DNA from: Pseudomonadota bacterium
Lineage (GTDB): Bacteria; Pseudomonadota; Alphaproteobacteria; Rhodospirillales; Magnetospirillaceae
NCBI GenBank assembly: GCA_021847015.1
Contig: JAJZVW010000014.1
Coordinates: forward strand, 1 to 64,000
Direction: 5' to 3'
DNA: 64,000 bases
Shown here: positions 1,113 to 4,352 of the stretch, in pieces
Numbering within the stretch: position 1 is the first letter of the stretch
Layout of the letters: every line of letters starts with the position of its first letter
Made by a program: the position numbers and the translations under genes
Notes under the pieces: generated by a model
What the model was told of the DNA's origin: nothing
The model's input: only the letters and a program-made list of their open reading frames with translations
Database searches by the model: none

Positions 1113-2513
1113 ATGGCCTGCAAGACAACCCTGTCCCCGGAAAACCTGGTCGCCCTCGGTGCGGACAAGCTGGCGCAGTTGATCCTCGACGAGGCGGAAG
1201 GCAACGCACCCTTCCGCAAGCGGGTTCGCGCCGCCCTGGCCGGCACCAAGGGCTCGCAGGCCGTCGCCGCCCTGATCGACCGACGGCTGGCCGCCCTGGA
1301 GAAGGCGCGGGCGATGGTCGCCTGGGAAAAAGAGCGGGCCTTCGCCGCCGACCTCGACGCCACCGTCGAGACGATCACCAAGGAACTGGCGGGCCTCGAC
1401 GCGATTGCCGCCGTTCAGCGCCTGCTGCGCTTCATCGACACCCATGGCGGGGTGTTCAACCGGATCGACGATTCCGGCGGGCGCATCCAGGATGTCTATT
1501 GGCGGGCGAGCGAGGCGGTGGCGGGGCTGGTCGGGAGGCTTTCGCCCGGGGACCGAGCCCGCGTGCCCGACTGGCTGCTGGTCAGCTTGTCCCGGGATAC
1601 CCATGGCCTGGCCGGCCGGATCGCCATCGCGGTGGCGCCGCTGTTGCCCGAAACCGTGCTGGCGGAGTGGGATCGTGCGCTGCGGAAGGCCGATGGTGAC
1701 GGCGACGGCATCCTGGCGATCCGCCAGGCCATCGCCGATGCGCGCGGCGACCTCGACCTCTATCTCGCGCTTGAACTTCAGCGTGCCGACTGGCGCCAGA
1801 ATCCGCTGCGGGCGGCCGAGAAGTTGCTGGCAGCCAATCGTCTGGATGAGGCGCTGTCCTGGGTGCGCCGGGAGCGCAAGAGCGGAGTGGCCTATGCCAC
1901 CGAGGCCGATCTGGCCGACGGGCGGATCAACAGGCTGCATGACGCCGACCGGGTGGCGCTGGAGGCGCGCATCATGGAGGCGATGGGCGACCGGCCGGCC
2001 GCCCAGGCGCTGCGCTGGGCCGCCTTCGAGGCCACCCTGCATGTGCCGACGCTCCGCGACTACCTGCGCAAGCTGGAGGATTTCATCGAATACGAGGAGC
2101 AGGAGCGGGCCTTCGGCGTCGTCGAGGCCTTCCGGCATCCCTACGTCGCCCTGGCGTTCTTCGTCGAGTGGCCGCGCCTCGACCGTGCCGCGATGATGGT
2201 TCTGGCCAAGCGTAGCCAGTGGGACGGCCGCCACTACGACGTTCTGGGTGAAGCGGCCGCGGCGCTGGAGGAGAAGTTTCCGCTGGCCGCCACCGTGTTG
2301 TACCGAGCCCTGCTGAACGACATTCTCGCTAGGGCCAAATCCCCGGCCTACGGCCACGGGGCGCGTCATCTCGCGAAGCTGGAGGCGCTGGCCGGCTGGA
2401 TCGCAGACTGGGACGGCCTGGAAAATCACGTCACCTACACGCTGGGCCTGCGCAAGGCCCATGGCCGCAAGATCGGCTTCTGGAGCGTGGTTGAAGGGAA
2501 AGTGCGGCGGTGA
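1113..2513 (+). CDS. DUF6880 family protein
   Basis: A 466-residue, probably cytosolic, all-helical protein of unknown function. The start at ATG 1113 (MACKTTLSPENLVALGADKL) is preferred over the ATG at 1071 because family members begin with a short MASKTTL-like motif. Visible family traits are the N-terminal KTTL..NL.ALGA..LA segment, the VFNRIDDSGGRIQDVY motif near residue 120, a repeat-like helical middle resembling HEAT/TPR solenoids, and a C-terminal HGRK..FW segment. The last residues (VEGKVRR) may have been altered, because a group II intron reverse transcriptase fragment begins right at the stop codon. It sits among mobile-element remnants next to a tRNA gene, so it is probably island cargo. 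Confidence 0.7.
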   Translation: MACKTTLSPENLVALGADKLAQLILDEAEGNAPFRKRVRAALAGTKGSQAVAALIDRRLAALEKARAMVAWEKERAFAADLDATVETITKELAGLDAIAAVQRLLRFIDTHGGVFNRIDDSGGRIQDVYWRASEAVAGLVGRLSPGDRARVPDWLLVSLSRDTHGLAGRIAIAVAPLLPETVLAEWDRALRKADGDGDGILAIRQAIADARGDLDLYLALELQRADWRQNPLRAAEKLLAANRLDEALSWVRRERKSGVAYATEADLADGRINRLHDADRVALEARIMEAMGDRPAAQALRWAAFEATLHVPTLRDYLRKLEDFIEYEEQERAFGVVEAFRHPYVALAFFVEWPRLDRAAMMVLAKRSQWDGRHYDVLGEAAAALEEKFPLAATVLYRALLNDILARAKSPAYGHGARHLAKLEALAGWIADWDGLENHVTYTLGLRKAHGRKIGFWSVVEGKVRR

Positions 2514-2749
2514 TGCCGGACGGAACGAAGGTCGCCGTCCGGGAAGGAACTCCCCAAGGGGGTCCGCTCTCGCCGTTGCTCTCCAACGTTGTTCTCAACG
2601 AACTGGATGGCGAATTGGCGAGGCGCGGCCTTCGGTTCGTTCGGTACGCCGATGATGCCAACATCTTCGTGCGGAGCGAACGCGCCGGATTGCGGGTCAT
2701 GGCATCGGTTCGGCAGTTCCTGGAAAAGCGCATGCGGCTCCGCGTCTAA
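2504..2749 (+). pseudogene. fragment of a group II intron reverse transcriptase/maturase
   Basis: About 80 residues containing EGTPQGGPLSPLLSNVVLNE and FVRYADDANIFVRSERAG, the signature blocks 4 and 5 of group II intron reverse transcriptases, including the catalytic YADD. The similarity starts abruptly around VMPDG (about 2504-2525), overlapping the stop codon of the DUF6880 gene, and breaks at TAA 2747-2749 just after LRLRV, where a full LtrA-like protein would continue with KSAV and the maturase and endonuclease domains. Both ends are missing, so this is a dead internal fragment. No intron domain V hairpin is recognisable nearby. Confidence 0.85.
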
Positions 2750-3015: not shown

Positions 3016-3054
3016 AAAAACCCCTGCTAAGTCGTTGACCTAGCAGGGGTTTTT
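3016..3054 (-). terminator. intrinsic terminator after tRNA-Met
   Basis: AAAAACCCCTGCTA at 3016-3029 pairs perfectly with TAGCAGGGGTTTTT at 3041-3054 around an 11-base loop. On the minus strand it follows the 3' end of the tRNA by three bases and ends in a T run, so it terminates the tRNA transcript; the symmetric A/T flanks could also work in the other direction. Confidence 0.85.
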
Positions 3055-3056
3055 AT

Positions 3057-3133
3057 TGGTAGCGGAGGAGGGACTTGAACCCCCGACACGCGGATTATGA
3101 TTCCGCTGCTCTAACCAGCTGAGCTACTCCGCC
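3057..3133 (-). tRNA. tRNA-Met (anticodon CAT), elongator type
   Basis: The 77-nt reverse complement folds into a standard cloverleaf. The acceptor stem is GGCGGAG / CTCCGCT with a G-U first pair. The D arm is GCTC..GAGC, and the anticodon stem GCGGA / TCCGC carries loop ATCATAA. The variable loop is GTGTC, the T arm is GGGGGTTCAAGTCCCTC, and a CCA end is encoded. CAT could also mark tRNA-Ile2 (lysidine-modified) or initiator tRNA; the first pair and overall sequence match alphaproteobacterial elongator tRNA-Met as I remember it. It abuts a region of mobile-element debris, a typical integration site. Confidence 0.93.
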
Positions 3134-3218: not shown

Positions 3219-4121
3219 CTACGACGCGGAGTGGAGTATGCGCACCGGCACCGACGGGCGGGCGGCTTCGGCCCAGCTCACCGCCGCCCAATCCACGCGG
3301 TCGGCCTGGGAGCCGGCCGCGGCGGTGACCATCCGCCGCAGGCCGGGAATCCGTTCGACCGGCATCGGCCGGCGGTCCTCGATCGCGTCCGCCTGTCCGT
3401 GCGATGGATTCGCCTCCAGCCACAGGTCGCCGTCGATCCAGGCCAGCTTGGCCGGTTCGTCGACGATGGTGACGCGGGTTCCCACCGGAATCTCGGGGAA
3501 CAGGGCGGCGATGTCCTCGGGGTACAGGCGCATGCAGCCGTGGCTGCTGCGGCGGCCGACCCCGTCGGGCAGATTGGTGCCGTGGATGCGGATCAGCCCC
3601 AGGGCCAGGTCCAGGGCGTAATCGCCCAGCGGATTGTCGGGCCCCGCCGGTATCACCGCCGGCAGCCAGGGCTTTTCCGCGCGGATCGATTTCGGCGGCG
3701 TCCAGGTGGGATGCACCCGCTTGCCGGCGACTCGGGTGGTGCCGGGCCTGAGTTCCCATCCCTCGCGGCCGATGCCCATGGGATAGCTGGTGACCTGCCC
3801 GCCCTCCCGGGGCAGGTAGTACAGCCGCATGTCCCCCATGTTGGCGACCAGGCCAGGCCTCATGCCGGCGGGGGCGATGTGGGTGGTGGGCAGGACGATG
3901 CGGGTACCCGGCGTCGGAATCCAGGGATTGACGCCGGGGTTGGCCGCCAACAGCTCGACATAGCCGAGGTCGTGGGCGCGGGCGATGTCGGGCAGGGTGT
4001 CGCCCTTGGCCACGACCTGGGTCTCGGCAAGTTCGACGATATCCGTAGGCGGGCGGGCCGCCGCTGGCTGGGCCAGGGCGACCGCCGCCGCCATCAACAT
4101 CAATCCGGCCGCTTTGCGCAC
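3219..4121 (-). CDS. L,D-transpeptidase with LysM-like domain (ErfK/YbiS/YcfS type)
   Basis: A 300-residue periplasmic enzyme expected to make mDAP-mDAP crosslinks or to attach a protein to peptidoglycan through a catalytic cysteine. Residues 1-22 are a signal peptide (MRKAAGLMLMAAAVALAQPAAA). Residues about 35-80 form a LysM-like peptidoglycan-binding segment (VVAKGDTLPDIAR... PGTRIVLPT). The YkuD domain spans about 90-220 with the motif H180-GTN...S193-H194-G195-C196-MRL, so His and nucleophilic Cys are present. The proposed GTG start at 4121 lies 3 bases after the stop of the upstream lipoprotein gene, so the two are surely cotranscribed. The LysM plus YkuD plan is that of the E. coli enzymes that attach Braun lipoprotein, which fits the neighbour. 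An internal ATG start within the signal peptide is also possible. Confidence 0.93.
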   Translation of the reverse strand: MRKAAGLMLMAAAVALAQPAAARPPTDIVELAETQVVAKGDTLPDIARAHDLGYVELLAANPGVNPWIPTPGTRIVLPTTHIAPAGMRPGLVANMGDMRLYYLPREGGQVTSYPMGIGREGWELRPGTTRVAGKRVHPTWTPPKSIRAEKPWLPAVIPAGPDNPLGDYALDLALGLIRIHGTNLPDGVGRRSSHGCMRLYPEDIAALFPEIPVGTRVTIVDEPAKLAWIDGDLWLEANPSHGQADAIEDRRPMPVERIPGLRRMVTAAAGSQADRVDWAAVSWAEAARPSVPVRILHSAS

Positions 4122-4124
4122 GGC

Positions 4125-4352
4125 CTATTTGCGCAAGCTGCGGTTGTACATGGCTTCCGCTTGCTGCTGGGCCGCCGCCGCTTGCTGCTGGGCCGCCGCC
4201 GCCTGCTGCTGGGCGGCGCTGGCGGTCTGTTCGACCCTTTGCATCTCCTGGCGCAGGCTGGCGACATCGGCTTTGGTCGCCGTGTCTTCGGCGCAGGCGC
4301 CCAGGAGCGGAAGGGTGGCGACGATGACGGGGATGGTGATGCGCGCGATCAT
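4125..4352 (-). CDS. Lpp/OprI-like alanine-zipper lipoprotein with C-terminal Arg-Lys
   Basis: A 75-residue lipoprotein. The start at ATG 4352 gives a short signal peptide with lipobox L-L-G-A-C20, so the mature chain has 56 residues, almost the 58 of E. coli Braun lipoprotein. The mature part is a single predicted helix: TKADVASLRQEMQRVEQTAS, then three near-identical AAQQQA blocks encoded by a DNA repeat, then EAMYNRSLRK. The terminal Arg-Lys matches Lpp (YRK) and OprI (SRK), where the last Lys is joined to peptidoglycan by L,D-transpeptidases. The next gene, 3 bases away, encodes exactly such an enzyme. Function as a covalent outer membrane-peptidoglycan tether is inference. A longer upstream frame exists but lacks the signal peptide at its start. 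Confidence 0.85.
   Translation of the reverse strand: MIARITIPVIVATLPLLGACAEDTATKADVASLRQEMQRVEQTASAAQQQAAAAQQQAAAAQQQAEAMYNRSLRK

Follow-up and report, generated by a model that had tools for sequence, protein, structure and literature searches.

Braun's lipoprotein (Lpp) of Escherichia coli and OprI of Pseudomonas aeruginosa are the closest described counterparts of a gene pair that we analyzed in a 64,000-nucleotide stretch of contig JAJZVW010000014.1 (the window) from an alphaproteobacterium of the family Magnetospirillaceae. In this pair, a gene for a short lipoprotein stands just ahead of a gene for an L,D-transpeptidase (LDT), and with a probability of roughly 0.77 we read it as encoding an outer-membrane tether of the Braun type and the enzyme that attaches it, homologues of OprI/LdtPae2 and of Lpp and the LDTs of the ErfK lineage. 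In P. aeruginosa, LdtPae2 is the only enzyme that anchors OprI, which it does via the C-terminal Arg-Lys of the lipoprotein to give Tri-Lys-Arg, and loss of LdtPae2 or OprI renders cells EDTA sensitive (PMC10434034; here and below, papers are cited for the portions of their text that were available). The same paper assigns LdtPae2 to the lineage of ErfK, YbiS, YcfS, and YnhG, and a peptidoglycan-attached lipoprotein of Pseudomonas is also mentioned elsewhere (PMC8263019).

Published accounts, in their available portions, treat Braun's lipoprotein as gammaproteobacterial, and other tethers have been sought in Alphaproteobacteria. Lpp homologues are described as 'absent in most Alphaproteobacteria', with none known in Rhodobacter sphaeroides (PMC10470522); lpp is given as missing in Brucella and related Rhizobiales (PMC10787603), Agrobacterium tumefaciens as being without Lpp (PMC11527210), and Rhodothalassium salexigens as having no Braun homologue (PMC11762602). 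The premise of a first-pass annotation of this DNA, that the class is generally considered to lack Lpp and to use crosslinked beta-barrel proteins instead, is thus in print, beta-barrel tethers being described where Lpp is missing (PMC10787603, PMC11527210, PMC12729407). Sacculi of R. sphaeroides contained Tri-Lys-Arg at 4.3 ± 2.9% in the wild type and 1.1 ± 0.6% without dalA, the attached protein being unknown in the available text of that report (PMC10470522). Our searches of the open-licence literature, as far as its text was available, brought up no description of a tether of the Lpp/OprI type from this class, and nothing further came from the available text of PMC7969528 and PMC10659215. 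Databases already name the family; the conclusion that the class has such a tether is, as far as open-licence searches reach, not drawn in the literature.

The two genes and their products

The first-pass annotation had described a 56-residue mature lipoprotein with an alanine-zipper helix and an Arg-Lys end, followed after three bases by an LDT with LysM and YkuD domains and Cys196. Both descriptions were borne out, the former by the open reading frame, the heptads, and an AlphaFold model, the latter by the open reading frames and domain matches (Table 1). The prolipoprotein frame runs from 4352 to 4125 on the minus strand, has the lipobox LLGA directly before the cysteine, and ends in NRSLRK. 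Residue +2 after Cys20 is Ala; Asp at this position, which in E. coli retains lipoproteins in the inner membrane, was found in 1 of 53 alphaproteobacterial lipoprotein clusters.

Three features of the Lpp/OprI family are present in the window lipoprotein (P0001), namely, a lipobox with a short mature part (56 aa), a continuous heptad helix without a globular domain, and a C-terminal Lys, usually as Arg-Lys in the family and so in P0001. In the AlphaFold monomer model, residues 25 to 74 form a single helix with a pLDDT of about 95. The distribution of A/L/I/V/M residues, averaged over 53 clusters without a shuffle control, peaked at a period of 3.5. For P0001 alone the 3.5 signal was weak (shuffle fraction, 0.08), and the 7.0 signal was strong (0.002). 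Mature lengths ranged from 52 to 88 residues across the 53 alphaproteobacterial clusters, and in 19 of these the length was 66 or differed from it by a multiple of 7, the reference length being chosen post hoc; it is as if the rod varied in length by whole heptads.

The YkuD active-site motif of the LDT reads HGTNLPDGVGRRSSHGCMR and includes Cys196; the active-site Cys is invariant among the 11 rows of an LDT alignment (A2). LDTs of the ErfK/LdtPae2 lineage have a YkuD domain with an SXGChR motif and an upstream LysM domain, as does this enzyme; the motif differs from the SXGChA type, which has been proposed for the Lpp-releasing amidase (PMC10434034). The modeled LDT matched a Klebsiella LDT structure (4lzh; TM-score of 0.76 by query length), and its profile matched PDB entry 9tyw (E 4e-84). 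By sequence, the enzyme is nearest to the ErfK/YbiS/YcfS/YnhG (LdtPae2) lineage. In the host genome, YkuD matches at E<=1e-3 numbered only three, the third of them in a 167-aa frame. The second belongs to a protein with Scaffold and PG_binding_1 domains that resembles PRK10594 (277 bits; cutoff, 425), which we take to be YcbB/LdtD, and this protein is likely a 3-3 crosslinking enzyme apart from the LDT of the pair.

Table 1. Features at and next to the lipoprotein-LDT pair in the window
Feature	Coordinates	Strand	Basis or remark
lpp-like gene	4125..4352	-	Prolipoprotein 75 aa, mature part 56 aa, Arg-Lys end
Lipoprotein signal peptide, 19 aa, with lipobox LLGA ahead of Cys20	4296..4352	-	Read directly from sequence
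Three alanine-zipper helix heptads, QQQAAAA QQQAAAA QQQAEAM	4149..4211	-	Sequence; period 7 signal; modeled helix 25-74
Codons of terminal Arg74-Lys75 (Lys75, presumed attachment residue)	4128..4133	-	Sequence
Spacer GCC, three bases, from TAG stop of lipoprotein gene to GTG of LDT	4122..4124	-	
LDT gene	3219..4121	-	Product of 300 aa, starting at GTG; signal peptide probable; LysM and YkuD domains
LysM domain, LDT residues 36-78	3888..4016	-	Domain search, E 1.5e-5
YkuD catalytic domain, LDT residues 91-219	3465..3851	-	Domain search, E 1e-20
Codon of catalytic Cys196 in SHGCMR	3534..3536	-	Sequence; SXGChR-type motif
tRNA-Met	3133..3057	-	Downstream of LDT gene
Terminator-like hairpin	3016..3054	-	After tRNA-Met; weak, given 1 found versus 1.5 on average in shuffled sequence

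Terminal lysine and co-occurrence of the two genes

We examined the C-termini of lipoproteins encoded next to LDTs of this type, choosing these neighbors by lipobox, length, and helix-forming composition but not by their last residue. A first set comprised 143 distinct LDT loci, some of which had been fetched via the lipoprotein, so that it gives no prevalence; 90 of them had a lipoprotein within 1 kb, amounting to 77 distinct mature sequences in 53 clusters at 80% identity. Lys was the last residue in 52 of these 53 neighbor clusters, and 32 ended in Arg-Lys. In the full locus set, 104 of 108 candidates matched the lipoprotein profile and formed 76 clusters, 53 from Alphaproteobacteria and 23 from elsewhere. 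A Lys end was found in 47 of the alphaproteobacterial clusters (Arg-Lys in 39) and in all 23 others. For rough comparison, the 725 open frames longer than 300 aa at the same loci, unfiltered for being genes, included 16 with a Lys end. More than 20% of E. coli periplasmic proteins and lipoproteins end in Lys, Dickeya LDTs tolerate varied sequences ahead of the terminal Lys, and removal of the last Lys from Lpp cuts attachment about 50-fold (PMC12274547).

The exceptions fall at a few loci. Three or four residues follow the Arg-Lys at L082 (RKSSGS), L238 (RKPAR), and L299 from Azospirillum brasilense (RKTRS), where, judging from these sequences, the lipoprotein could be attached only after processing or through a Lys inside the chain. 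The other non-Lys ends are those of L239 and L240, which have no LDT of this type on their fragment, and of a second copy in genome G074 (L291), which ends in Arg. Such ends would suit a lipoprotein that never becomes crosslinked and serves as a free spacer or structural coiled coil in the periplasm, as would the report that just about one-third of E. coli Lpp is attached (PMC12274547). Yet only two columns, Cys20 and the last Lys, do not vary in an alignment of 28 lipoproteins (A3), a result that for the Lys is partly by choice since L082 was left out, and the lipoprotein keeps close company with the LDT lineage, in all 12 family genomes and all 26 class genomes that gave a confident lipoprotein match (see below). 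We regard a spacer that is never crosslinked as the least probable of the alternatives considered here.

Co-occurrence was followed with two lipoprotein profiles, A1, built from five sequences of the window's own family, and A3, built from the 28 lipoproteins. In the family, a full-length LDT of the lineage was found in 12 of 55 genomes, a 13th match (G216) being partial with a stop, and A3 matched a lipoprotein at E<=1e-8 in exactly these 12. The remaining 43 genomes gave one weak A3 match (1.5e-4) and none in the other 42 at E<=1e-3. A1 matched 11 of the 12 LDT genomes at E<=3e-4 and missed G207, though the gene adjoins its LDT; at E<=1 it gave some match in 34 of the 55, mostly noise. Within the family, the LDT most similar to that of the window is encoded in genome G213, which retains both genes (identity, 62% for the lipoprotein and 68% for the LDT) and likewise an LRK end, more than chance would lead one to expect. 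Genomes G204 and G205 carry two lipoprotein copies each, and G205 also has two LDTs of the lineage.

Across 385 genomes of the class, A1 gave matches in 47 at E<=0.05. At E<1e-6 it matched 12 genomes besides its own, and in 12 of 12 an LDT lay within 1 kb; since A1 holds only sequences of its own family, this test is the less circular of the two. A3 matched a lipoprotein in 26 class genomes at E<=1e-8. A near-full-length LDT was matched in 45 class genomes at E<=1e-80 (at E<=1e-30 the genomes numbered 56), and these 45 include all 26, an association with a Fisher p value of 1.4e-28. In 25 of these 26 the LDT was within 1 kb of the lipoprotein. The first-pass annotation had looked to a recurrence of the two-gene unit and its terminal Lys in Rhodospirillales genomes, and this recurrence is widespread, with exceptions.

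The order offered a set of genomes in which the two genes are apart. There, an LDT was strongly matched (E<1e-40) in 14 further genomes without such a lipoprotein in flanks of about 1.5 kb (loci L005 to L018); 12 of them were searched whole, G062 and G129 being left out since their LDT matches are broken at contig ends. A lipoprotein was encoded elsewhere in 12 of 12 (best E, 2.0e-17 to 4.4e-9), and each genome had at least one lipoprotein ending in Lys. Caenispirillum salinarum likewise has the two genes unlinked, and its lipoprotein ends in MMRK. That the genes occur together even when unlinked speaks for a function in common and against hitch-hiking. Gene order at the 53 neighbor clusters also varied (37 convergent, 13 with the lipoprotein upstream, 2 with it downstream, and 1 divergent), and the persistence of the pairing across these arrangements counts for the tether.

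These results also bear on an explanation in which the LDT makes 3-3 crosslinks like LdtE of E. coli, attachment of the lipoprotein falls to another enzyme or does not take place, and the neighborhood is simply inherited. The best NCBIfam score of the window LDT was indeed to LdtE (176 bits; cutoff, 480), and ldtE, which encodes a crosslinking enzyme (PMC12729407), converges with lpp in E. coli. Against this, a further LDT of the host carries Scaffold and PG_binding_1 domains, E. coli LdtE clusters with LdtA, LdtB, and LdtC in the LDT tree described below, apart from the alphaproteobacterial LDTs, and the co-occurrence persists in all 12 unlinked genomes. LdtPae2, of the same broad lineage, moreover anchors OprI (PMC10434034). 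We consider this explanation unlikely.

Searched with the LDT alignment, named genomes yielded at least 574 relatives, of which the best 80 loci were kept. A lipoprotein was encoded within 1 kb at 47 of these 80, with a Lys end in 47 of 47; the paired loci included those of Pseudomonas spp. with OprI, Tistrella mobilis (L136, ending in GQRK), Defluviicoccus, and a Kiloniellaceae genome. At L162:4484-4681, L198:4546-4761, and L268:3027-3236, short lipoproteins that lack an alanine zipper are encoded convergently with the same type of LDT, 600 to 700 nt away. Their C-termini are PVFESKQVK, KVFQKANTK, and PVFESRQVK, respectively, and they are perhaps another tether with a terminal Lys. Several relatives outside the class showed a pair of cysteines just before the C-terminal segment, as CC at L159, L165, L178, L183, L199, L200, and L202 and as CxxxC at L045, L157, L166, and L169; these could form disulfides between helices.

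Probable homology to Lpp/OprI and weight of the evidence

The LDT tree held 139 sequences (161 rows before near-copies were dropped) and was rooted at its midpoint. A single change splits 73 alphaproteobacterial from 37 gammaproteobacterial rows (SH-aLRT, 99), with paired loci on both sides, and 46 of the 73 alphaproteobacterial rows are paired with a lipoprotein. Setting the alphaproteobacterial label against all other rows takes six changes; the alphaproteobacterial side also holds seven unnamed rows of the same phylum, two labeled 'Bdellovibrionia' (Micavibrio), one from Desulfuromonadia, and two unassigned. Given the one-change split and the pairs on both sides, a recent transfer from Gammaproteobacteria is not supported, and on this midpoint-rooted tree an ancient common origin of the alpha- and gammaproteobacterial LDTs is likely.

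For the lipoprotein itself, low sequence complexity calls for caution with profile matches. The resemblance to Lpp/OprI could be a convergence of alanine-rich coiled coils, the window protein being an unrelated small lipoprotein. P0001 alone falls under the curated cutoffs, it matched the Pfam family Alanine_zipper (PF11839) at an E of only 0.23, and at E<=0.01 this family matched 21 of the 28 A3 members but not P0001. On the other hand, the NCBIfam Lpp/OprI profile NF040598 matched all 28 at E<=1e-3 and also matched E. coli Lpp (57 bits), and the same LDT lineage and neighborhood occur in Alpha- and Gammaproteobacteria. Convergence thus appears very unlikely, and a convergent protein would function alike anyway.

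The first-pass annotation had left open whether the pair is an independent or an overlooked solution. The second term stood and the first did not: with 28 of 28 NF040598 matches, an LDT of the ErfK/LdtPae2 lineage, and a neighborhood common to Pseudomonas oprI and E. coli lpp, sequence comparison favors, as the most likely reading of the pair, a homologue of the Lpp/OprI tether that has been overlooked. Independent invention is not supported.

Several results weigh against the pair being a tether and its enzyme. P0001 reached 32.3 bits against NF040598 (E 1.1e-7), below the cutoff of 43, and 6 of the 53 alphaproteobacterial clusters lack the terminal Lys. The A3 profile includes sequences from some of the genomes later searched with it, and its counts are partly so by construction. 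At E<=1e-3, 55 class genomes were lipoprotein positive, 35 with the LDT and 20 without, and 10 of the 45 LDT-positive class genomes had no lipoprotein match. Among the best 80 named loci, pairing was seen at 12 of 25 in Alphaproteobacteria versus 31 of 44 in Gammaproteobacteria; because only 12 of 25 named alphaproteobacterial loci have an adjacent lipoprotein, we set our confidence slightly lower. Finally, LDT function is described as not assignable by lineage (PMC10434034), and the LDT encoded beside lpp in E. coli, LdtE, makes 3-3 crosslinks (PMC12729407).

If the pair works as a Braun-type tether, the lipoprotein would be acylated at Cys20, be sorted to the outer membrane, and form a periplasm-spanning coiled coil, probably a trimer. 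The LDT would join the side-chain amino group of Lys75 to the meso-diaminopimelate (meso-DAP) of a stem peptide, and the acylated helix would set the distance between outer membrane and wall at about one helix length (50 residues, ~75 Å at 1.5 Å per residue). Since LdtPae2 anchors OprI, the window LDT is nearest to that lineage, and a separate enzyme is likely responsible for 3-3 crosslinks, attachment of Lys75 to meso-DAP is the likely activity of the LDT.

More tentatively, and with the odds in our view leaning the other way, the pair may go back to the shared ancestor of Alpha- and Gammaproteobacteria and be the original covalent tether of this group. Lineages with beta-barrel riveting, such as Rhizobiales, would then be replacements after loss, and many unexplored Alphaproteobacteria, perhaps including R. 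sphaeroides, would retain a Braun-type tether. A widespread alphaproteobacterial Lpp/OprI homologue with its own LDT would, if true, correct the distribution map of Braun's lipoprotein, offer a candidate protein type behind lipoprotein-derived muropeptides such as the Tri-Lys-Arg of R. sphaeroides, and make the history of outer-membrane tethering reconstructable. The spread of mature lengths would provide natural variants for studies of periplasm width.

Surroundings of the locus and comparison with known systems

The lipoprotein and LDT genes probably form an operon with the lipoprotein first; a promoter scan found none, and the hairpin after tRNA-Met may end the unit. Near the tRNA, at 2510-2749 (+), lies a reverse transcriptase fragment (PF00078, E 1.6e-14) with a YADD motif, probably a group II intron remnant, and a DUF6880 protein of unknown family is encoded at 1071-2513 (+; E 3.5e-114).

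Among known systems, the beta-barrel tethers reported in Brucella, Agrobacterium, and Coxiella share with the proposed pair an LDT-made covalent link between outer membrane and peptidoglycan that is reported in Alphaproteobacteria, but they are attached via the N-terminal part of an outer-membrane protein rather than a lipoprotein C-terminal Lys (PMC10787603, PMC11527210, PMC12729407). Plasmid p3 of Azospirillum brasilense Sp7 (NZ_CP033315.1) carries the same gene pair, ordered and oriented as in the window with 17 nt between the genes, under the RefSeq names 'alanine-zipper protein' and 'L,D-transpeptidase family protein'; its lipoprotein ends in SQRKTRS, so that, unlike in the window lipoprotein, the Lys is not terminal. 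E. coli Lpp is similar in mature length (58 residues versus 56 here), in its Arg-Lys end, and in being served by LDTs of the same broad lineage, and it is more leucine-zipper-like than the window lipoprotein. The Lpp-attaching LdtA, LdtB, and LdtC are, however, encoded away from lpp, which in E. coli K-12 converges with ldtE at a distance of 63 nt. In Pseudomonas, OprI is also an alanine-rich heptad lipoprotein with an Arg-Lys end, and an ErfK-lineage LDT is encoded next to it. From its lineage and from locus numbering, this LDT is probably LdtPae2 (PA14_27180). PDB entry 9tz4 has the OprI sequence, and 9tyw carries the motif of the OprI-adjacent LDT. The two Pseudomonas genes converge, whereas those of the window would form an operon. 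The tether type is already known; what would be new is an Lpp/OprI-type pair in a class said mostly to be without one.
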